Made by a program: the position numbers and the translations under genes. From the NCBI RefSeq assembly GCF_000328765.2, contig NC_019954.2, positions 996,501 through 1,060,500 on the forward strand: a stretch of DNA of 64,000 nt, given 5' to 3'. A model generated the notes under the pieces. It worked only from the letters and a program-made list of their open reading frames with translations. It did no database searches and was not told the DNA's origin. This document shows, piece by piece, positions 40,468-56,344 of the stretch. Source of the DNA: Tepidanaerobacter acetatoxydans Re1. Lineage in GTDB: Bacteria > Bacillota > Thermosediminibacteria > Thermosediminibacterales > Tepidanaerobacteraceae. The first letter of the stretch is position 1, and every line of letters begins with the position of its first letter.

Positions 40468-40495
40468 AGTCATGTATAGATTGGGGCGTAGTAAT

Positions 40496-40726
40496 ATGAC
40501 CGATAACAGGAAAGGCTCATTAAGCAAAATAGATGTAAGTGCAAGTCAGATAAAAAAGGAATTCGGGGTGGACTTGTATCTGTTTTTGGATGCTGTGTCT
40601 TTAGGATTGAGAGATGATGAAATAGCGGATCTCATAGGCATTGATTTTGATAAGGTAAAAAAAATAAGAGAGCGTTTGGGAAATATTAGCAGTGAAATCG
40701 GTATAAACTTCAAAAAAAACATTTAA
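40496..40726 (+). CDS. Small HTH-like protein
   Basis: 76 aa from ATG 40496 with a GGGGCG site; an ATG at 40472 is also in frame. Residues about 20-65 (KEFGVDLYLFLDAVSLGLRD, DEIADLIGIDFDKVKKIRER) form a helix-turn-helix-like pattern. It follows the DUF421 gene by 28 bp, so it is likely the third gene of that operon. It may be a regulator or a small structural protein; I do not know the family. Confidence 0.6.
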   Translation: MTDNRKGSLSKIDVSASQIKKEFGVDLYLFLDAVSLGLRDDEIADLIGIDFDKVKKIRERLGNISSEIGINFKKNI

Positions 40727-40746: not shown

Positions 40747-40806
40747 CGTTACAGGTAACGAGGTGATTGTGAAATATTTGACAATACCTTTTTTTATTTA
40801 TATAAT
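40747..40806 (+). promoter_or_regulatory. Consensus promoter with upstream palindrome for the sensory hydrogenase operon
   Basis: TTGACA (40778-40783), 17 bp, TATAAT (40801-40806): a perfect vegetative promoter. CGTTAC-AG-GTAACG (40747-40760) is a perfect inverted repeat 17 bp upstream of the -35, a candidate activator site. A leader of about 105 nt lies between the promoter and ATG 40915; no riboswitch class is recognised in it. Confidence 0.8.
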
Positions 40807-40914: not shown

Positions 40915-41157
40915 ATGAGAGCTATAAGTGTATGTGTGGGCAGTTCGTGTCATTTAAAGGGGTCCTACGATATTATAAGGATTTTTAAAGAATTGATAAA
41001 TGAGTATAATCTTGATAAGGAGTGGGAGCTAAAGGCCGAGTTTTGCTGTAACAACTGCCGCAATCCTGTTTCGGTCAGGATAGAAGATAGCAAGCCCTAT
41101 TCAGTTGATGTAGATAGTGCTGAAGCTTTTTTTAAGGAGAAAATACTGGGGGCATAG
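40915..41157 (+). CDS. Thioredoxin-like [2Fe-2S] ferredoxin (NuoE/HydC-type, small)
   Basis: 80 aa, GGGGAG site. C7, C12, C44 and C48 are in the thioredoxin-like 2Fe-2S pattern (CVGSSCHLKGS... CCNNCRNP). The N-terminal helical part of NuoE is missing, so it is the minimal domain. It lies 3 bp from the hydrogenase gene and probably passes electrons to or from it. Confidence 0.82.
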   Translation: MRAISVCVGSSCHLKGSYDIIRIFKELINEYNLDKEWELKAEFCCNNCRNPVSVRIEDSKPYSVDVDSAEAFFKEKILGA

Positions 41158-41160
41158 CTG

Positions 41161-42882
41161 ATGGAAGTAATTAACTTTTCCAGAGCAAATTGTAAAAATT
41201 GTTATAAATGCATAAGGGCATGTCCTGTAAAAGCAATCCGCATGAAAGATGACCAAGCGGAGATAGTCGATGAAAGGTGTATAACATGTGGCACATGCCT
41301 TACCATATGTCCGCAAAACGCTAAAACCGTTAAAAGCGATGTTCAAAGGGTAAAGCATTTACTTAAAAATGATAATGATATGGCTGTCAGCCTTGCACCC
41401 TCGTTTGCTGGAATTTTTTCCTTTCAGCATTATAGTCAAATAGTTTCAGCTTTAAAAAAACTTGGATTTTCGGCTGTATATCAAACTTCTGTAGGTGCCA
41501 GGCTTATTGCCAAAGATTATTTAAAGCATTACAACAACAGATCGAAGCCTAACTTAATCACTACCGCATGTCCTGCTATTAATTACTTAATTCAAAAATA
41601 CTACCCGGAGCTTATTGAATGTTTAGTGCCGGTGGTATCTCCTATGGAGGCACATGGCAGATACTTAAAAAATATAAAGGGACATAAGGAAGTGGCTTTT
41701 ATAGGCCCATGTCTTGCGAAAAAAGTGGAGATTCACGATGAAGGCAATTATGGTATTGATGCGGTATTAACCTTTGAAGAGCTTATGGCATGGTGGGAAG
41801 AAGAGGGAATTGACCCCATTTTAGAGTCTGTAAATGAGGTGGAAAACGGTTTTTGCGATGATGCCAATTTTTACCCGATACCGGGAGGCAGTTATAAAAC
41901 CATTGAACCTTTTATACAAGATAAATGGCGTGAATTTATCGAGGTCAGCGGCAAGGAAAATTGTATTATGATGCTTGATGAGATAAAAAAGGGTGAATTT
42001 CATAGAACTTGGATAGAAATGAATGCCTGTGAAGGAGGATGTATTAACGGACCTGCTGTTGGCAGCATAAACAGAGGCCCTTTTAAGCGTATTAAATGTG
42101 TGAAAATATTTGCACGAAATAACAGCTCATGCGCAGAGCCGATGATGGTAGAACAAACAGATATTCAATTAGATTTTAAAAAGTCCTATAATCCAATGCC
42201 TTTGGAAATCAAAAAGCCCAGCGAAGAAGAAATAAAGCGCATATTAGAAACTACAGGGAAGTATAGGCCGGAACACGAATTAAATTGTGGTGTTTGCGGA
42301 TATAATTCATGTCGGGAAAAGGCTGAAGCTGTATATAATGGTATGGCCGAAATTCATATGTGTATGCCTTACATGAGAAATCGAGCAGAATCCCTTTCGA
42401 ATCTAATTATTGAATCAACACCGAATGCCATTATTGCAGTAAATATGGATATGAATGTTCAGGTATTCAACAATGGTGCTGAAAAAATGTTTAAAATTAG
42501 CAGTACTGACATTATCCATAAACCTTTAAGTTTGCTGTTTGATGATGATGATTTTAAATATGTAAGTAAAACAAAACAAAATATTATAAACAAAAAAGTG
42601 TATTTACCTATGTATGAGTTGATAACTCAACAAGATATATATTATGAAAAAGAACATTCATTGATAATAGGTATAATCACGGATATAACAGCTCAACAAC
42701 AAATCCAAGAAAGAAGCATAAAGCTGCGCAAGGAAACTGTGGAAACCGCTCAGCAGGTCATAGAAAAGCAGATGAGAGTAGCTCAGGAAATTGCAAGTGT
42801 TTTAGGTGAAACCACGGCCGAAACAAAAGTTTTGTTAAATAAGATACAGCGGCTTTTAATTGATGAGATTCCGGGTGAATAA
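41161..42882 (+). CDS. hydS: Sensory [FeFe]-hydrogenase (group C-like) with 4Fe-4S and PAS domains
   Basis: 573 aa. Two N-terminal 4Fe-4S motifs (C11/C14/C17/C21 and C40/C43/C46/C50). The H-cluster domain has LITTACPAI, IGPCLAKKVE, MNACEGGCINGPA in place of the usual TSCCPxW, MPCxxKxxE, ExMACxGGCxxGGG, so the first motif has alanine where catalytic enzymes have cysteine. A further Cys motif (CGVCGYNSCREKA) and a PAS domain (ESTPNAIIAVNMDMNVQVFN) follow, then a coiled coil. This order is that of HydS-type sensory hydrogenases. It likely senses H2 and passes the signal to the PP2C phosphatase encoded 3 bp downstream. Confidence 0.9.
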   Translation: MEVINFSRANCKNCYKCIRACPVKAIRMKDDQAEIVDERCITCGTCLTICPQNAKTVKSDVQRVKHLLKNDNDMAVSLAPSFAGIFSFQHYSQIVSALKKLGFSAVYQTSVGARLIAKDYLKHYNNRSKPNLITTACPAINYLIQKYYPELIECLVPVVSPMEAHGRYLKNIKGHKEVAFIGPCLAKKVEIHDEGNYGIDAVLTFEELMAWWEEEGIDPILESVNEVENGFCDDANFYPIPGGSYKTIEPFIQDKWREFIEVSGKENCIMMLDEIKKGEFHRTWIEMNACEGGCINGPAVGSINRGPFKRIKCVKIFARNNSSCAEPMMVEQTDIQLDFKKSYNPMPLEIKKPSEEEIKRILETTGKYRPEHELNCGVCGYNSCREKAEAVYNGMAEIHMCMPYMRNRAESLSNLIIESTPNAIIAVNMDMNVQVFNNGAEKMFKISSTDIIHKPLSLLFDDDDFKYVSKTKQNIINKKVYLPMYELITQQDIYYEKEHSLIIGIITDITAQQQIQERSIKLRKETVETAQQVIEKQMRVAQEIASVLGETTAETKVLLNKIQRLLIDEIPGE

Positions 42883-42884
42883 TA

Positions 42885-44054
42885 ATGGAAGTAAGAACGG
42901 AATTGTATTGGGAAAGTAATAATAAATATGGTGAAGAGCTTTGCGGCGATAAGGTAGAGGCAGTGCAAAGCGTTGAAGAAACTATTATGGTAATGGCCGA
43001 TGGCTTAGGCAGCGGAGTCAAGGCAAATATCCTTGCGACGCTGACAAGTAAAATAGCCGTGACGATGTTGAAGCAAGGATCTAGTATCGAAGAAACGGTT
43101 AAGACTATAATGGCTACATTGCCTATCTGCAAGGTGCGAAAAATCGCCTATTCTACATTTACCATTATAAGAGTAGATTCATTTGGGAATTGCTATATTG
43201 CCGAATATGGCAATCCTCCGGTAGTCCTTTTAAGAGAAGGTAGTGTTATAAAACTTAACGGAACAGTAAGGAAGATAGAGGGAAAAGAAGTAAGGGAACA
43301 CCGTTTGAAGGTTCAAAGAGATGATATTTTTATAGTTATGAGCGACGGTGTCGTACATGCGGGAATAGGTGGTATATTAAATCTCGGATGGCAATGGGAG
43401 AATATAGCTCAATATATCGAAAAAGTATCAAAAGTTGAACACACTTTAGGAGGTCTTGTTAAATTACTCTCTACAGCCACCATGAATTTTTACATGGACA
43501 AAGCCGGAGATGATGCAACAGTTGCAGCACTAAAAATCATTGCCCCACAATTTGTAACAGTATTTACCGGGCCGCCTCAAAAGCCTGATGATGATGAAAA
43601 GGTAATTGCTCATTTAATGCGAAAGCCCGGGAAAAAGGTGGTATGCGGAGGGACCGCAGCTCAGATTGCAGCACGTGTTCTAGGCAGAGAAATAGAAACA
43701 TCTACAGAATTCATAGATCCTGAGATACCTCCTATTGCACATATCAAAGGGATAGACCTTGTGACTGAAGGTGTTCTGACTTTGGCTCGTACAAGAGAGC
43801 TTATTATGAGGTATTTTGACCCTTGTGCCCAATATAAGGAACTTCGCCAACTGGAACAAAAAGATGGTGCTTCAAGGCTTGCGAGGATTCTCGTAGATGC
43901 CACGGATGTTATTTTTCTTTTAGGCAGGGCTATAAATCCTGCACATCAAAATCCTGATTTTCCTAAAAATCTTTCCATAAAGCTAAATGTAGTAAGAGAA
44001 TTGGCAGAGATATTAGAAAAAATGGGCAAACATATAGAGATTATTTACTATTAA
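42885..44054 (+). CDS. SpoIIE-type PP2C serine phosphatase partner of the sensory hydrogenase
   Basis: 389 aa. SpoIIE/PP2C core: EELCGDKVEAVQ, VMADGLGSGVKANILATL, VIVMSDGVVHAG-like block (FIVMSDGVVHAGIGG), DKAGDDATVAAL, with the acidic metal-binding residues present. The last about 150 residues (KKVVCGGTAAQIAARVLGRE) are a distinct extension I cannot name. Phosphatases of this class dephosphorylate anti-anti-sigma or similar proteins. Here it directly follows the hydrogenase with its PAS domain, the known HydS-PP2C arrangement. Thus H2 level to phosphatase to gene expression is the inferred path. Confidence 0.85.
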   Translation: MEVRTELYWESNNKYGEELCGDKVEAVQSVEETIMVMADGLGSGVKANILATLTSKIAVTMLKQGSSIEETVKTIMATLPICKVRKIAYSTFTIIRVDSFGNCYIAEYGNPPVVLLREGSVIKLNGTVRKIEGKEVREHRLKVQRDDIFIVMSDGVVHAGIGGILNLGWQWENIAQYIEKVSKVEHTLGGLVKLLSTATMNFYMDKAGDDATVAALKIIAPQFVTVFTGPPQKPDDDEKVIAHLMRKPGKKVVCGGTAAQIAARVLGREIETSTEFIDPEIPPIAHIKGIDLVTEGVLTLARTRELIMRYFDPCAQYKELRQLEQKDGASRLARILVDATDVIFLLGRAINPAHQNPDFPKNLSIKLNVVRELAEILEKMGKHIEIIYY

Positions 44055-44323: not shown

Positions 44324-44350
44324 GGGCGGTCATCGACCGCCCATTTTTTA
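44324..44350 (+). terminator. Terminator of the sensory hydrogenase operon
   Basis: GGGCGGT-catcg-ACCGCCC followed by ATTTTTTAT. It lies 270 bp after the phosphatase stop, an unusually long 3' distance. Confidence 0.85.
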
Positions 44351-48880: not shown

Positions 48881-49738
48881 ATGTTAAGACATTATGTAAA
48901 ATCTATTTTTACTTTGTTAATGTTATTAGCCTTATTAGTCTCGGCTGTTGGATGCGGCAGCAGCACAGATTCCCAACCTCAAGAACAGTATGATAATGAT
49001 AACAATGCTGAACTTAGCGGTTCCATCCAAATAGCAGGTTCAACATCAGTTCAGCCGCTGTCGGAAGAGTTGGCTATGGAATTTATGAGCAAATATCCAA
49101 AAGTTAAGATTAATGTTGCAGGAGGCGGTTCCGGAGCCGGCATTAAAGCAGCTCAGGAAGGAACTGCGGATATCGGTGCATCTTCCCGTGAATTAAAACC
49201 TGAAGAAAAAAATGTAAAAGAATTTGTTATTGCAAAAGATGGTATTGCTGTAATAGTAAATCCGGAAAATCCAGTCAGCAACCTGACCATTGAGCAAATA
49301 AGGAGCATTTTTTCAGGTGAGGTGACAAATTGGAAGGATGTAGGCGGCAGTGATGCTTCAATAACTGTAGTCATACGTGAAGATGGTTCCGGAACAAGAG
49401 GTGCCTTTGAAGAAATAGTATTGGGTAAAGATGTAAAATTTACCGAGAAAGCCATTGTTCAGAATTCCACCGGTGCATTGAGAACAACGGTATCAACAAC
49501 GCCTGATGCTATTGGATTTATATCGCTTGGCTCCCTAAATGATGAAGTAAAAGCGCTTCAAGTAGACGGTGTTAACATTTCAAAAGAAAATATTCTAAAT
49601 AATTCTTATAAGCTGGCGAGGCCGTTTATCTATATGACCAAAGAAGAGCCAACAGGTTTGGTTAAAAGCTTTATTGATTTTGTTTTAAGCAGTGAAGGTC
49701 AAAAAATTGTTGAAAAAGACTTTATACCTGTAAATTAA
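48881..49738 (+). CDS. pstS: Phosphate ABC transporter substrate-binding lipoprotein
   Basis: 285 aa. Lipoprotein signal with lipobox SAVGC at about residues 21-25. Phosphate-binding motifs: IAGSTSVQPLSEELAMEF, GGGSGAGIKAAQEGTADIGA, REDGSGTRGAFEEIVLG. It captures phosphate outside the membrane for PstCA. AGGAGGAG site. A hairpin between pstS and pstC (49769-49798) would lower expression of downstream genes relative to this one, a usual design. Complete. Confidence 0.95.
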   Translation: MLRHYVKSIFTLLMLLALLVSAVGCGSSTDSQPQEQYDNDNNAELSGSIQIAGSTSVQPLSEELAMEFMSKYPKVKINVAGGGSGAGIKAAQEGTADIGASSRELKPEEKNVKEFVIAKDGIAVIVNPENPVSNLTIEQIRSIFSGEVTNWKDVGGSDASITVVIREDGSGTRGAFEEIVLGKDVKFTEKAIVQNSTGALRTTVSTTPDAIGFISLGSLNDEVKALQVDGVNISKENILNNSYKLARPFIYMTKEEPTGLVKSFIDFVLSSEGQKIVEKDFIPVN

Positions 49739-49768
49739 GACATAACCTGAGTATACGCACAGACAGCA

Positions 49769-49798
49769 ACAGGTCTTCTTAAAAAAAGACCTGTTTCT
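49769..49798 (+). terminator. Attenuating hairpin between pstS and pstC
   Basis: ACAGGTCTtcttaaaaaAAGACCTGT followed by TT: an 8-bp stem. Probably partial termination leaving excess pstS mRNA. Confidence 0.65.
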
Positions 49799-49858
49799 CA
49801 TAAGCTCGATATTGTTCTGTGCTACTGCCCCATTTTAACAGAATAGGAGAAGCTTGGG

Positions 49859-50725
49859 ATGCAAAAAATACTTTTTTTGTGTGCTGCTTTATCTATAGCG
49901 GCAGTCATTATGATATGCTTATTCGTTTTTATTGAAGGTTATCCGATAATACAAAAAGTTGGATTTTTTAACTTTGTTTTTGGTCAAAAGTGGAGTCCTT
50001 CAGAAGGCTTATACGGGATATTGCCGATGATTATGGGCACTTTTACTACTACATTGGGTGCAATAGTTCTCGGTGTGCCTCTTAGTATTTTTACGGCAAT
50101 ATTTTTAGTGGAATATGCACCAAAAAAAGTTAAAAAACTGATTAATCCTGCGATTGAGCTCTTGGCCGGAATTCCTTCCGTTATATACGGGCTTTTTGGC
50201 ATGACTATGGTTGTTCCTATAATACGAGAATTTCAAAAAGCATGTTTTGGAATAAAACAATCACAGATTCAGTCGGGTTACAGCATACTGGCAGCTTCCA
50301 TTATTTTATCCATAATGATTTCGCCTACTATTATAAACATCACTAGTGATGCTCTGAAATCCGTCGAACATGATTTGAAGGAGGGCTCATTAGCTTTAGG
50401 GGCAACTGATTGGCAGACTACTTGGCACATTATACTTCCGACGGCAAAATCAGGCATTATAGCCGGTGTAGTTTTAGGCATGGGAAGGGCTATCGGTGAG
50501 ACCATGGCGGTGATAATGGTGGCAGGCAATACGGTAGGATTTCCTAAGTCAATATTCTCTCCCGTCCGAAGTTTGACCGGCAATATAGCTATCGAAATGG
50601 CTTATGCTGCTGCAGGCGATCACATGCAGGCATTGTTTGGAACGGGAATAGTGTTATTTATACTAATAATGGTCATAAACATATTTGCACTGAGAATATA
50701 TGAAAAAGGAGTAAAGGTCAAATGA
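49859..50725 (+). CDS. pstC: Phosphate ABC transporter permease PstC
   Basis: 288 aa with six membrane segments. The permease signature (EGSLALGATDWQTTWHIILP) is the EAA-like loop contacting the ATPase. The start gives a hydrophobic N-terminus (ILFLCAALSIAAVIMICLFV), slightly short for PstC but normal in Clostridia. The ATGA overlap with pstA shows translational coupling. Confidence 0.93.
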   Translation: MQKILFLCAALSIAAVIMICLFVFIEGYPIIQKVGFFNFVFGQKWSPSEGLYGILPMIMGTFTTTLGAIVLGVPLSIFTAIFLVEYAPKKVKKLINPAIELLAGIPSVIYGLFGMTMVVPIIREFQKACFGIKQSQIQSGYSILAASIILSIMISPTIINITSDALKSVEHDLKEGSLALGATDWQTTWHIILPTAKSGIIAGVVLGMGRAIGETMAVIMVAGNTVGFPKSIFSPVRSLTGNIAIEMAYAAAGDHMQALFGTGIVLFILIMVINIFALRIYEKGVKVK

Positions 50726-51558
50726 AGCCCAAAACTGCTGAAAAAGTTATAAAAGTCGTATTATGGCTAAGCGGTCTTTTGACATTTTCAATCCTTGCGA
50801 CAATCCTTATTTACATTATTTCTCGCGGACTTAACAAAATCAACATAGAATTTTTAACACAGCTTCCACGTCGGATGGGTATGGAGGGAGGTATTTATCC
50901 TGCTATACTCGGAACATTTTATTTTACTGCGGTTACGATTTTCATTGCGGCACCTATGGGGATTGCTACTGCTGTATACTTAACTGAATATTCAAGACAA
51001 ACTATCTGGGTAAAAGCCATACGTTTCGGAAATGATATGCTGTCGGCCGTTCCGTCTATAGTATTTGGCCTTTTTGGATTTGCATTATTTGTAGTGAAAT
51101 TGAAGCCTATAACAGGCGGATGGTCAATTCTTTCCGGTGCGCTGACCGGTGTATTTATGATATTACCAATCTTAATAAGAGCAAGCGAGGAAGCTATAAA
51201 AGCCGTTCCTCAAGAATATAAGGAGGGAAGCCTTGCTTTAGGAGCAAGTAAAGAGCAGACAGTGGCTCATATAATTATCCCTGCAGCTATGCCCGGGATA
51301 ATTACAGGTATTATTTTGGGGATAGGTCGAATAATAGGCGAAACAGCTGCCTTTCTTCTAACTCTCGGAGGGTCGGTACTGGTTCCACATTCAATTTTTG
51401 ATCCTGCTCGAACATTAGCTATGCATATATATCTTACTGCAATGGAGGTTGGAGCATTGGATGCGGCTTTTGGAACGGCAGCAGTGCTGATAATTACTAT
51501 ATTAATATTAAATATGATTACTCATATAGTTTTAAGCAGATATTCAAGGCTTTCATAA
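50722..51558 (+). CDS. pstA: Phosphate ABC transporter permease PstA
   Basis: 278 aa with six membrane segments and EAA-like loop EGSLALGASKEQTVAHIIIP. Starts inside the end of pstC (overlap 4 bp). Pairs with PstC to form the phosphate channel. The family's GRIIGETAAFLLTLGGSVLV block is present. Confidence 0.93.
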   Translation: MKPKTAEKVIKVVLWLSGLLTFSILATILIYIISRGLNKINIEFLTQLPRRMGMEGGIYPAILGTFYFTAVTIFIAAPMGIATAVYLTEYSRQTIWVKAIRFGNDMLSAVPSIVFGLFGFALFVVKLKPITGGWSILSGALTGVFMILPILIRASEEAIKAVPQEYKEGSLALGASKEQTVAHIIIPAAMPGIITGIILGIGRIIGETAAFLLTLGGSVLVPHSIFDPARTLAMHIYLTAMEVGALDAAFGTAAVLIITILILNMITHIVLSRYSRLS

Positions 51559-51649
51559 AGATTATATAAAAGGATATTTTCAATTTCCACGAAATATGCT
51601 TATAATTGTAGTATGAAACATAATATAGTATATCTTTTGGAGGTATTCC

Positions 51650-52369
51650 ATGGAAATTACCAAGAAGGCAATCTTAGTTGTTGATGACGAGAAAAATATC
51701 CGAGAATTAGTTAGGTTTAATCTTGAAAGCCGGGGCTATAAGGTAAAAGAAGCTATGGACGGCAAGGAAGCTTTAAGCATTGCAAGGACTGATGAACCGC
51801 TCTTGATTATTCTTGATCTTATGTTGCCTAAAATTGACGGATTGGAAGTGTGCCGTATTCTAAAGGGTGACCCATCTACCAAAAAAATCCCGATAATAAT
51901 GCTTACGGCTCTGGGTGACGAAATTGATAAAATCGTTGGCCTAGAATTGGGAGCTGATGATTATATTACAAAACCGTTTAGCCCACGAGAGATGGTAGCA
52001 AGAGTGCGAGCAGTCATTCGACGCGTAGAAGACAGGAGAAAGCCTGAAGAGCCTGAGCATTCAGTAAACGAGTTTAATGATCTTGTTATTGATGAACAAA
52101 AACATGAAGTTTTGCTTAGCGGTTCAAGATTAGACCTTACATTAAAAGAATATGAGCTGCTAAAAGTTTTTGCTGCCAATCCTTTTAATGTATTTAGCCG
52201 TGAGCATCTGCTGGAGAAGGTATGGGGCTACGATTTTATGGGCGATACGCGCACTGTTGATGTTCATGTATGCAATTTGCGCAGAAAGTTAGAAGAAGCC
52301 GATGATAAAACAGGATATTACATTGAAACAGTTCGTGGTGTAGGTTATCGCTTCGGGTATAGGGAGTGA
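51650..52369 (+). CDS. phoP: PhoP-type response regulator of phosphate starvation
   Basis: 239 aa, GGAGG site. Receiver: VVDDEKN near 10, D56 in IILDLMLPK, T in MLTALGDE, K in YITKPFSP. OmpR-type winged-helix DNA-binding domain (LDLTLKEYELLKVFAANPFN, VWGYDFMGDTRTVDVHVCNL). It is inserted between pstA and pstB in the pst operon, 4-bp overlap with phoR. It likely binds the TTAACA repeat upstream of pstS. Confidence 0.93.
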   Translation: MEITKKAILVVDDEKNIRELVRFNLESRGYKVKEAMDGKEALSIARTDEPLLIILDLMLPKIDGLEVCRILKGDPSTKKIPIIMLTALGDEIDKIVGLELGADDYITKPFSPREMVARVRAVIRRVEDRRKPEEPEHSVNEFNDLVIDEQKHEVLLSGSRLDLTLKEYELLKVFAANPFNVFSREHLLEKVWGYDFMGDTRTVDVHVCNLRRKLEEADDKTGYYIETVRGVGYRFGYRE

Positions 52370-54117
52370 GTTTGTTGAGGCGAAATATTTTTATAACATA
52401 TATGATCATCGTATTTATAAGTCTTTCTATGACCGGAGTTTTTACCGTAAGAGCAGTTGAACAATTTTTTACAAAGACTACTGAAGACATGCTTCTAACA
52501 CATGCAAAAGTTCTGCGGACATTCTTAGCTTCCGAACTAGAACAGCAAGAAAGCCTTGATGAAACAGTGAGGGCATTGAGCAAAGATATTAATACCCGAA
52601 TAACTATTGTAGATTTAAAGGGCGACGTGATTGCCGACACCGAAAAAAATCCAGAGGAACTGGAGAATCACAAAAATAGGCAAGAGATAAGGCAAGCATA
52701 TATGGGTAAAATTGGGAAAAGTATACGTTATAGCAGTTCAGTAAAAACTATGATGATGTATGTCGCACTGCCTGTTCTGAAAAACGACGCAATTATTGCT
52801 GTCCTGCGTTTGTCTTTACCGCTTTCAAAAATTAATTATCTTTCTAAATCCATATGGGGAATTATTTTTTCTTCAACTATTGCAGGACTGATTATTGCTT
52901 TTTTTATGAGTACAGTCTTTTCAAAAAGAGTTACAAAACCTATGGAAGAAGTAACTCAAGCTGCTAAAGAGATGGCTCAAGGGAATTATGGCATGAAAAT
53001 ACCTGTCAGAGCTTCCGGAGAAATAAAAATACTTGCCGAGTCTTTTAATTGCATGTCAGATAATTTGCAAAAAACAATTAATGACTTAAAAGACGGAAGG
53101 GATAAGACTGAGGCAGTCTTAAGCAGCATGGCTGAAGGCCTAATTGCGGTGGACCATAACTGCCATATAGTTATGATGAATTCGGCGGCTGAAAAGCTTT
53201 TTAAAATAAAAAAAGACGAATTTTTGGGCAGACATCTCTTAGAAATGCTGAGAAATAAAGAGCTGTATGATTTGGTTAATACTGTTTTAACAACTTCTAA
53301 AAATCTAAGTCAGGAACTTAAAATTATTACATCAACAGAGAAAATATTTTATATAAATATCTCGCCGATAAATAAGATAGAAAACTCTGGAGCAGTGATA
53401 ATACTAAGGGATATTACAGATTTAAGGAAATTAGAAAAAGTTAGGACAGAGTTTGTTGCAAATATATCCCATGAATTAAAGACACCGCTGACTTCTATTG
53501 CAGGTTTTGTTGAGACACTGCTGGATGGTGCGTATAAAAGCCAGGATCACTGTAAATATTTTTTAGGTATTATAAAACAAGAGACTGATCGAATGACGCG
53601 GCTGATTAATGAACTGCTTTACTTTTCTCATATAGAAAAAAATGGCACTGAGATTATTAAAAAACCGGTTGATATGATCGAAGTTATAATGAAAGCACTA
53701 AGTATTTTGCAAACGGCAATAAATGAGAAAAAACACAAAGTAAATCTAAAATTACCTGAGAATATCGCACATATCTTGAGTAATGAGGACAGCCTTCTTC
53801 AAATTATGATAAATCTTTTGGATAATGCAATAAAGTATACACCTGAGGGTGGCACAATTAGCATCATGGTTGAGGAAACTTTAGAAAATGTATTGATTAC
53901 TGTTGCTGATAATGGCATCGGTATTGCCGAGGACGAGCTTGATCGGATATTCGAGCGTTTTTATAGGGTAGATCGGGCAAGGTCGGGTGAAATAGGTGGT
54001 ACGGGGTTGGGGCTTGCTATGGTAAAACATCTGGTTAAAGGCTTGGAAGGTTGGATTAAAGTGGAAAGTGAGCTTGAGAAGGGAACTTCGTTTACCGTTT
54101 ATATACCAAAGATTTAG
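52366..54117 (+). CDS. phoR: PhoR-type sensor histidine kinase
   Basis: 583 aa from TTG 52366 (overlap with phoP; an ATG inside is possible). Order: TM1 (IFITYMIIVFISLSMTGVFT), extracytoplasmic domain about 35-165, TM2 (IIFSSTIAGLIIAFFMSTVF), HAMP (KPMEEVTQAAKEMAQGNYGM), PAS (VLSSMAEGLIAVDHNCHIVM), HisKA (VANISHELKTPLTSIAGFVE), HATPase (NLLDNAIKYTPEGG, DNGIGIAEDELDRIFERFYR). It senses the state of the Pst transporter via PhoU and phosphorylates PhoP. Confidence 0.93.
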   Translation: MSLLRRNIFITYMIIVFISLSMTGVFTVRAVEQFFTKTTEDMLLTHAKVLRTFLASELEQQESLDETVRALSKDINTRITIVDLKGDVIADTEKNPEELENHKNRQEIRQAYMGKIGKSIRYSSSVKTMMMYVALPVLKNDAIIAVLRLSLPLSKINYLSKSIWGIIFSSTIAGLIIAFFMSTVFSKRVTKPMEEVTQAAKEMAQGNYGMKIPVRASGEIKILAESFNCMSDNLQKTINDLKDGRDKTEAVLSSMAEGLIAVDHNCHIVMMNSAAEKLFKIKKDEFLGRHLLEMLRNKELYDLVNTVLTTSKNLSQELKIITSTEKIFYINISPINKIENSGAVIILRDITDLRKLEKVRTEFVANISHELKTPLTSIAGFVETLLDGAYKSQDHCKYFLGIIKQETDRMTRLINELLYFSHIEKNGTEIIKKPVDMIEVIMKALSILQTAINEKKHKVNLKLPENIAHILSNEDSLLQIMINLLDNAIKYTPEGGTISIMVEETLENVLITVADNGIGIAEDELDRIFERFYRVDRARSGEIGGTGLGLAMVKHLVKGLEGWIKVESELEKGTSFTVYIPKI

Positions 54118-54150
54118 TATGTATATTATTATTTAGCCGGGAGGATACCA

Positions 54151-54906
54151 ATGGTAAATAAGTTTAAGGCAGAAAATCTCAATTTTTACTATGGAGAAAA
54201 TCATGTACTTAAAAATATTAATATGGCTATACAAAGCAGTCAGGTGACTTCGCTGATAGGTCCTTCGGGCTGCGGTAAAACTACTTTTTTAAGGAATCTA
54301 AATCGCATGAACGATCTTATAGAGGAAGCTCGAGCTGAAGGCAGAATCTTTCTTGACAACGAGAATATTCTGTTGCCGACTACCGATGTTGTGGAATTGC
54401 GAAAAAGGGTAGGGATGGTGTTTCAAAAACCAAATCCTTTTCCTATGAACATATATGACAATATAGCTTATGGGCCCAGAATCCACGGTATACGAAATAA
54501 AACAGAAATTGACAATATTGTAGAGCGAAGCTTAAAGGCGGTGGGCCTGTGGAATGAAGTAAAGGATAGGCTGAAGGACTTAGCGTTAGGTCTATCCGGC
54601 GGTCAGCAGCAAAGGTTGTGTATAGCTCGAGTCCTTGCCGTTGAGCCTGAAGTACTATTGATGGATGAACCCTGCTCAGCCTTAGATCCAATTTCTACAA
54701 TGAAGGTTGAAGAACTTATTTTAGATTTAAAGCAGCAGTATACTATAGTTGTAGTTACTCATAATATGCAGCAGGCCGCAAGAATTTCCGACTACACTGC
54801 TTTCTTTTTGAGCGGTGAACTGGTAGAACTTGGGCCTACCGTGGAAATGTTTCATACGCCTAAGGACAAACGCACGGAAGATTACATTACCGGAAGATTT
54901 GGCTAG
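54151..54906 (+). CDS. pstB: Phosphate ABC transporter ATPase PstB
   Basis: 251 aa. Walker [18 protein letters not shown]-loop [17 protein letters not shown], signature [16 protein letters not shown], Walker [17 protein letters not shown]-loop [10 protein letters not shown]. All typical of PstB, including the [15 protein letters not shown] region. GGGAGG site. Next gene is phoU, 35 bp away. Confidence 0.95.
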
Positions 54907-54941
54907 AACTCAAAATAATAACTTGAGCGGAGGTATAAAAA

Positions 54942-55604
54942 ATGTCAGCTCCCAGGCAGTGGTTTGATAAAGATTTAGATGAGCTTAATCAAGAGATATT
55001 GAAAATGGGAGGAATCATTGAGCAACAAATATATGATGCTGTCGAGTCTTTAATAAGCAAGGATTTAGGCTTGGCCGAAACCGTTATTAATCGAGATGAC
55101 CAGGTAGACGAACTTCAACAAATAATAGAAGATAAGTGTATCAGACTTGTGATTCGACAGCAACCAATGGCTAAGGATATGCGTGCTGTTTTTGCCGGAA
55201 TAAAATTGGTTACGGATTTGGAACGAATTTCGGATACGGCCGTAAACATTTCCAGAATTGCAAAACGAATTATTGATGAGCAGTATATAAAGCCGCTCAT
55301 TGATATCCCTCGTATGGCAAAGGTTGCACAAGATATAGTAAGGGTTGCGCTAGATTCGTTTGTAAGAAGAGATATAAACATGGCAAAAAGTTTGTTTAAT
55401 ATGGAAGAGGAGATTGACCATCTCTATGCTCAGATTTTTAGGGAACTGCTTGTTATTATGATGGAAAATCCTAAGACTATATCTCAAGCCACGCAACTTT
55501 TAATGGTAGCAAGGCATTTAGAAAGAATAGGAGATCATAGCACCAATATCGGTGAAATGGTGGTTTACTTGGAAACCGGGAAAAGAATAAAATTAAATGA
55601 TTAG
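54942..55604 (+). CDS. phoU: Phosphate signalling regulator PhoU
   Basis: 220 aa, two three-helix bundles with the metal-binding ExxxD motifs (DLERISDTAVNISRIAKRI; RHLERIGDHSTNIGEMVVYL). It connects transporter and kinase and restrains phosphate uptake. Last gene of the operon; a GGAGGT site precedes it. Confidence 0.93.
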   Translation: MSAPRQWFDKDLDELNQEILKMGGIIEQQIYDAVESLISKDLGLAETVINRDDQVDELQQIIEDKCIRLVIRQQPMAKDMRAVFAGIKLVTDLERISDTAVNISRIAKRIIDEQYIKPLIDIPRMAKVAQDIVRVALDSFVRRDINMAKSLFNMEEEIDHLYAQIFRELLVIMMENPKTISQATQLLMVARHLERIGDHSTNIGEMVVYLETGKRIKLND

Positions 55605-55640
55605 GAATATGAGTATTTTGCTGGAACATTTTTAGAAAAT

Positions 55641-55679
55641 AGTATAAAATAGTATAAACAGTATAAGTAGTATAAAGAT
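55641..55679 (+). repeat. Short tandem AGTATAA repeat
   Basis: agtataaaat, agtataaac, agtataagt, agtataaag: four near-identical 9-10-bp units between phoU and the transaldolase gene. It contains several TATAA boxes and may be part of the promoter. Confidence 0.55.
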
Positions 55680-55696
55680 AATGGGGGTTAAATTTA

Positions 55697-56344
55697 ATGA
55701 AATTTTTTCTTGACACCGCTAATGTTGATGAGATCCGTGAAGCAGCCGCTACGGGGATTATTTGTGGCATTACCACAAACCCGACTTTGATAGCCAAAGA
55801 AGGCAGGGATTTTAAAGAAACTATTATAGAAATCACTTCAATAGTTGACGGTCCAATCAGTGCCGAGGTAATAAGCCTTGAAGCGGAGGGTATGGTCAGG
55901 GAAGCTGAGGATATAGCTGCTTGGCATCCAAATATCGTTATAAAAATACCAATGACATGGGAGGGACTCAAAGCAGTAAACGTACTTAGTAAAAAAAACA
56001 TCAAGACAAATGTAACGCTGGTGTTTAATCCAAACCAGGCACTGGCAGCGGCACGAGCCGGAGCTACATATGTAAGTCCTTTCGTAGGAAGATTTACTGA
56101 TATCACTCAAGACGGAATTGCTTTGGTTTCAGACATTGCCGAGATATTCAGCTTGCACGATATTTCAACACAAATTATTGCGGCCAGTATCAGGACACCT
56201 ATGGATGTATTTGAGTCAGCCAGAGCCGGTGCAGATATTGCAACTGTTCCGTATAAAGTGCTTATGCAGATGATAAAACATCCACTGACAGATATTGGTA
56301 TTGAGAGATTTCTGGCTGATTGGGAAAGTGTTCCAAAGAAATAA
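55697..56344 (+). CDS. Transaldolase of the fructose-6-phosphate aldolase (TalC/FSA) type
   Basis: 215 aa, a short form typical of Tal[21 protein letters not shown] and [15 protein letters not shown] at the N-terminus, Schiff-base lysine in [15 protein letters not shown], and [14 protein letters not shown]. It moves a dihydroxyacetone unit between sugar phosphates in the non-oxidative pentose phosphate pathway; in FSA variants it splits fructose-6-phosphate. From sequence I favour transaldolase but cannot exclude FSA. Site AGGGGGTT. Monocistronic with a downstream hairpin. Confidence 0.9.

Follow-up and report, generated by a model that had tools for sequence, protein, structure and literature searches.

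In the HydDB classification, group C3 [FeFe]-hydrogenases are designated "phosphatase-linked (putative)" (PMC5037454). The closest described loci are the hfsABC(D) operons of Thermoanaerobacterium saccharolyticum and T. thermosaccharolyticum, which encode a small hydrogenase-like protein (HfsA), a PAS-bearing HydS (HfsB), a serine phosphatase (HfsC) and a catalytic ferredoxin hydrogenase (HfsD) (PMC5707799, PMC11837493). In Thermoanaerobacterium, deletion of hfsA or hfsB increases the adhE transcript and ethanol production, and deletion of hfsC or hfsD does not (PMC5707799). Removing hfsB is a recognized means of obtaining high ethanol yields. H2 sensing by HydS systems is still a putative function, assumed in the literature. 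Here we analyze a locus of this kind in a 64,000-nucleotide stretch (the window; contig NC_019954.2, positions 996,501 to 1,060,500, forward strand) of the genome of Tepidanaerobacter acetatoxydans Re1, which oxidises acetate in syntrophy and depends metabolically on H2 controlled by its partner. Judged by sequence, the three adjacent genes are an HfsA-HfsB-HfsC triad of the C3, phosphatase-linked type, a known kind of system with the gene order of the published operons. They probably form an orphan operon for redox or H2 sensing, with outputs in trans and a level set by the repressor Rex. What looks new is a strictly conserved C-terminal domain of HfsC, hereafter EXT; a Rex-linked H2 regulon of three operons and the natural absence of hfsD are also worth pursuing. 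The unnamed EXT domain, the Rex link and this natural case without hfsD offer handles on the signal path of C3 systems, which are widespread: HfsC-type phosphatases occur in about 30% of the genomes sampled from the phylum.

Organization of the locus

The features of the locus, in window coordinates, are the following.

40747-40760, strand undefined: palindrome CGTTACAGGTAACG (CGTTAC-AG-GTAACG), judged not functional (no conservation in relatives)
40767-40784, + strand: candidate Rex-type operator TTGTGAAATATTTGACAA overlapping the -35 box (pattern scan, upstream alignment)
40778-40806, + strand: sigma-70 promoter TTGACA-17-TATAAT (12/12 match, kept in the upstream alignment of the family)
40915-41157, + strand: hfsA, 80-aa thioredoxin-like [2Fe-2S] protein (sub-threshold PF01257, invariant Cys)
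41161-42882, + strand: hfsB/hydS, 573-aa group C (M2f) [FeFe]-hydrogenase (Pfam domains, ligand comparison)
42885-44054, + strand: hfsC, 389-aa phosphatase with C-terminal domain
42885-43535, + strand: hfsC phosphatase domain (SpoIIE/PPM family), aa 1-217 (PF07228, Foldseek, metal ligands)
43536-44051, + strand: hfsC EXT domain, aa 218-389 (no Pfam or NCBIfam match; AlphaFold, motif conservation)
44324-44342, + strand: intrinsic terminator closing the operon (8-bp stem with 7 G-C pairs, then a T run)

The three open reading frames (ORFs) are co-directional and separated by gaps of 3 bp (hfsA-hfsB) and 2 bp (hfsB-hfsC). They are under strong purifying selection, with a ratio of nonsynonymous to synonymous change (dN/dS) of 0.03-0.1 against the closest relatives in those comparisons where synonymous changes are unsaturated; together with a position kept across the family, this shows that the triad is not a chance assembly. 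The ORFs and their Pfam domains agree with a preliminary description of this DNA, which had read a [2Fe-2S] protein, a HydS with a PAS domain and a SpoIIE-type phosphatase as one operon behind a perfect promoter. The wording "fused in operon" holds in the sense of co-transcription; no protein fusion is present.

The assignment to C3 rests on the definition of that group and on the features of the locus, which show no difference from it. A sensory-type hydrogenase gene lies beside a serine/threonine phosphatase gene, 2 bp away, and HfsB has the four H-cluster cysteines and the C-terminal cluster followed by a PAS domain that mark C3/M2f enzymes. The proposed link between a HydS-type sensory hydrogenase and a PP2C phosphatase fits both HydDB C3 and hfsABC.

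Gene neighborhoods were counted in the 80 best named loci, 70 of which have enough readable upstream DNA. The PP2C gene and the C-terminus of HydS are found in 80/80, HydS in 70/70, and hfsA ahead of it in 65/70. A catalytic hydrogenase gene lies at most 2.5 kb downstream in 49 of the 70 loci. In the family to which the window belongs the triad is an orphan, with family-wide synteny: dacF/YetF genes flank it on one side and a DEAD-type helicase gene on the other. The helicase gene follows the operon directly in the window, where no catalytic hydrogenase gene is linked to the triad: hfsD, part of the Thermoanaerobacterium operon, is absent here and, by a PF02906 search, from the whole genome.

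HfsA and HfsB

HfsA has a thioredoxin-like [2Fe-2S] fold according to a Pfam match below threshold (PF01257, E 1.4e-4), and its cysteines 7, 12, 44 and 48 are invariant in about 93 homologous stretches. The hfsA gene is tandemly duplicated before hydS in many gut and rumen Clostridia (L087, L108, L111, L115, L117, L121, L125, L131, L132, L136, L137, L140).

In HfsB, two ferredoxin [4Fe-4S] motifs (residues 6-54) precede the H-domain (74-298; Fe_hyd_lg_C, E 2e-50), a C-terminal Fe-S domain (374-403; PF04060, E 1.2e-9), a PAS domain starting at residue 415 (E 1.5e-5) and a C-terminal helix; Pfam thereby confirms the extra Fe-S and PAS domains first read from the sequence. Residue conservation was scored against about 77 relatives from phosphatase-linked loci. 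The H-cluster ligands C137, C184, C290 and C294 and all eight cysteines of the N-terminal ferredoxin are present and invariant or nearly so (about 76-79 relatives; the H-cluster ligands do not vary in 77-78), as is the Cx2Cx4Cx16C motif (C376, C379, C384, C401) ahead of the PAS domain.

The cysteine said to be missing from the TTACPAI segment is indeed absent, but it is not an H-cluster ligand: A136 occupies the proton-relay position, equivalent to C299 of CpI, and all ligands are in place. Among the relatives this position is Cys in 57/77 and Ala in 11. Since most keep the cysteine, its loss is not a signature of phosphatase-linked HydS, and the altered active-site surroundings seen here (A136, G182) are not a strict mark of the class. 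In group C overall Ala is the commonest relay residue (about 43%), and the HydS of Thermotoga maritima, TmHydS, likewise carries it (PMC10055695). On this sequence comparison, Gly in place of Met353 is the better signature, found as G182 in HfsB and likewise in 76/77 relatives.

TmHydS shares with HfsB the relay Ala, the Gly for Met353, the C-terminal four-Cys Fe-S domain and the PAS domain; the two differ at the Met497 position, where HfsB has Asn instead of Ser, and TmHydS is reported to lie in one operon with another hydrogenase, unlike the gene studied here (PMC10055695). The group D enzyme TamHydS (PMC8163306) and the 442-aa HydS encoded in the main hydrogenase cluster of this genome also combine an H-domain with a C-terminal four-Cys cluster domain. 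Unlike HfsB, these two have neither a PAS domain nor a phosphatase linked to them; the link is instead to a protein with DRTGG and HATPase domains.

HfsC and its EXT domain

Residues 1-217 of HfsC are a SpoIIE phosphatase domain (PF07228, E 4e-16), whose predicted structure matches 3pu9 (E 1.3e-15) and SpoIIE 5mqh (E 1.6e-14) in Foldseek. The metal ligands, on which the preliminary description had made its reading depend, are all in place and do not vary among 55 homologues (D39/G40, D154/G155, D209/D210), within the motifs DGLGSG (the DGxGSG motif), SDG and GDD. HfsC thus has the fold and metal-ligand motifs of the Bacillus subtilis SpoIIE phosphatase domain (PDB 5mqh, 5ucg); it differs from SpoIIE in having no membrane domain and in carrying EXT, which SpoIIE lacks. 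A short repeat match of residues 91-121 to designed "Pizza" propellers was judged to be due to chance.

EXT spans residues 218-389 and measures 172 aa, more than the "about 150 residues" first given. That it could not be assigned is borne out: searches of Pfam, NCBIfam and PDB sequences gave no family. A sequence match to beta-lactamases (E above 0.3) was attributed to chance, and the only PDB profile match, to phosphoheptose isomerase (E 0.063), was rejected. EXT is nonetheless among the most conserved parts of HfsC: the core residues of its motifs GPP, VCGGT, GIDLVTEG and GRAINPAHQNP show little or no variation in 72 homologues. AlphaFold models it with confidence as an alpha/beta domain (pLDDT 89.9) in which each motif sits where a predicted strand ends (strands 6-11, 33-37, 75-77 and 124-129). 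Ligand sites in folds of this type usually lie at such points, and the model suggests that EXT may have one there. Foldseek found no significant match (best E 0.018). In VIA-align, FhcB, NuoG, FwdB and FdhF came out on top (Z 9.2-7.5, rmsd 3.0-3.9 over 108-125 residues, against 6.5 or less for unrelated rows), which is suggestive, though not conclusive, of a modeled fold akin to the alpha/beta domain of molybdopterin oxidoreductases.

The 80 named loci had been selected through EXT, a bias for which the linkage between EXT and the phosphatase was rechecked with the phosphatase domain alone. EXT is present in 121 of 398 genomes sampled across the phylum; the HfsC phosphatase domain (E < 1e-20) occurs in 119 genomes of that sample, nearly always in a single frame of 380-400 aa. 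As far as these sequences go, EXT accompanies the HfsC-type phosphatase throughout the phylum and is not a variable tail. The extension had been proposed as the effector-specific part of the protein, an idea that its constancy within this phosphatase subfamily contradicts. In several genomes the reading frame changes between the phosphatase and EXT, or within EXT (L149:4787-5298, also L178, L179 and L180), through a frameshift or sequencing error or a real split.

In three genomes of a single genus, EXT-like proteins of about 158 aa with partly degenerate motifs also occur on their own, encoded immediately behind bifurcating hydB-hydA genes (L049:4123-4602, L050:4457-4912, L051:4099-4575). Two other apparent stand-alone copies (G401, G396) lie at contig ends with no readable upstream DNA and are uninformative. 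To our knowledge, neither the constancy of EXT with the phosphatase nor its stand-alone form has been published. The two papers found to pair HfsC with the word "phosphatase", PMC11837493 among them, call HfsC just a serine phosphatase. EXT may regulate HfsC by binding a ligand or a hydrogenase. One could go further and tentatively envision an undescribed hydrogenase-linked, ligand-binding domain, fixed in all C3-type phosphatases and also found alone beside bifurcating hydrogenases, that might serve as a second input, from a metabolite or cofactor, in the tuning of H2 metabolism; in T. acetatoxydans the sensor and both bifurcating hydrogenases could then make up one small Rex-controlled regulon dedicated to H2.

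Probable regulation by Rex

The preliminary description placed the operon under the control of the palindrome CGTTAC-AG-GTAACG. In the closest relative, whose HfsB and HfsC are 97-98% identical, this element reads CATTAC-AG-ATAACA; it is absent in other relatives, and the genome holds no second perfect copy. Lacking conservation and a second copy, the palindrome is unsupported as an operator; the conserved element is the Rex-type site next to it. This site, TTGTGAAATATTTGACAA, differs at two positions (12/14) from the Clostridia Rex consensus TTGTTAANNNNTTAACAA given in PMC8457756. It is found before hfsA in most genomes of the family, and the conserved block of the upstream alignment ends in the -35 box.

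Across the 2.76-Mb genome the pattern TTGTNAANNNNTTNACAA has three matches and no more, against one for the backwards control. One lies before hfsA (40767-40784), one before rex, with which the group D HydS/HydABC cluster begins, and one before the second hydC-hydB-hydA operon. Two genomes of the same genus likewise have exactly three such sites, the genes downstream of which were checked in part. Of 66 loci, 13 have a site ahead of hfsA that matches the Rex consensus at 12/14 or better, compared with 0.3 in shuffled sequences. Since a Rex site had been predicted before hfsABCD of T. saccharolyticum (PMC5886521), the link is supported by comparison and is not wholly new. These sequence patterns suggest that Rex, a repressor that senses NADH, switches hfsABC. 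In two members of the family, Rex-type sites also lie 57 bp before a gene resembling zinc-type alcohol dehydrogenases (L156:1501, L167:252).

Proposed signaling and alternative readings

By the PF02906 search, the other [FeFe]-hydrogenases of the genome are two of HydA type and one group D HydS. The genome, a single contig, has the layout rnf, a formate/nitrite transporter gene and hydABC, plus a second hyd cluster. The published account of T. acetatoxydans Re1 (PMC4374699) gives the same layout and describes both of these Hyd clusters; nowhere does it use the term "sensory".

For the orphan HfsABC operon we infer the following course of events. HydS would equilibrate slowly with H2 and, perhaps via HfsA, with reduced ferredoxin; the redox state of its C-terminal [4Fe-4S] cluster would be passed to the PAS domain and the helix, and HfsC would thereby be restrained or released. 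HfsC would in turn dephosphorylate Ser or Thr on a target that belongs to the hydrogenase/fermentation network. Rex, as a sensor of NADH/NAD+, would set the amount of the sensor jointly with the two bifurcating hydrogenase operons. Because hfsD is absent, the output of HfsABC would have to be in trans, which makes these two co-regulated hydrogenases the likely outputs and best candidates. The simplest reading of the Thermoanaerobacterium deletions is that HfsAB restrains an output running through HfsC and/or HfsD.

Several points weigh against this scheme. Overexpression of hfsD restored high ethanol yield without hfsC (PMC11837493), so that HfsC is not always needed for the ethanol output, and for C3 HydS as a whole action on the phosphatase is, like H2 sensing, still a putative function. 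The site TTGTGAAATATTTGACAA departs from the Rex consensus at two positions, the genome has a second Rex-like gene (two in all, at C1:1966621 and C1:642891), and it has been suggested that HfsABC might function as a hydrogenase (PMC13277313).

SpoIIE-family phosphatases are usually opposed to RsbW-type kinases. Besides a SpoIIAB-like protein, the only HATPase_c_2 protein above cut-off (two in all) combines DRTGG and RsbW-like HATPase domains; its gene lies between rex and the group D HydS gene (L056:12351-13151, - strand), in an operon that carries a Rex-type site too. HfsC might oppose this protein, the two Rex-linked HydS loci supplying a kinase and a phosphatase for a shared target. We regard this pairing, proposed from gene content and the shared Rex-type site, as unlikely, though worth bearing in mind: the kinase could come from other HATPase families, and PrkC/PrpC-like genes are present as well.

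It is quite improbable that HfsABC is instead a catalytic hydrogenase module of low activity, in which HfsA would carry electrons and the phosphatase would be an accessory. The intact H-cluster ligands and electron-relay ferredoxin domain of HfsB are consistent with catalysis, as are the relay cysteine kept by most relatives and the residual HfsABC hydrogenase proposed in PMC13277313. However, the activities of TmHydS and TamHydS are low (PMC10055695, PMC8163306), Met353 is replaced by Gly almost throughout the relatives, and deletion of hfsB in T. saccharolyticum increases benzyl-viologen hydrogenase activity (PMC5707799); a catalytic role would also leave the PAS domain and the conserved phosphatase unexplained.

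Classic partner switching, in which HfsC, a SpoIIE/RsbU-type phosphatase with complete metal ligands, would act on a STAS anti-anti-sigma factor and connect H2 to a sigma factor, perhaps the sporulation factor sigma-F, is very unlikely: the anti-sigma-factor-antagonist partner once suggested has little room in a genome whose single STAS protein (Pfam search) is most likely SpoIIAA, given that it adjoins the SpoIIAB-like kinase, a separate SpoIIE-family protein of SpoIIE size (831 aa) exists, and no STAS gene is among the recurrent neighbors of the 80 loci.

Neighboring genes

Further recurrent neighbors of the loci are genes for an APH-type kinase (10 loci), adhE (9) and rex (7), the last two named by reading the sequences. 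The kinase gene, APH/RIO-like, lies upstream of hfsA (L117:6260-7009 and similar cases) and encodes a possible kinase partner of the phosphatase. Recurrent clusters of minus-strand ORFs near the loci are shadow frames of hydrogenase genes. A gene just upstream of hfsA in the window (40472-40726) encodes an 84-aa helix-turn-helix-like protein that belongs to no known protein family; it keeps this place in most of the family's genomes and in a single genome from a different family. Farther downstream, at 48881-56344, genes for a PstS-like phosphate-binding lipoprotein and a PstC-like permease, with more co-directional genes, are probably a phosphate-uptake operon.

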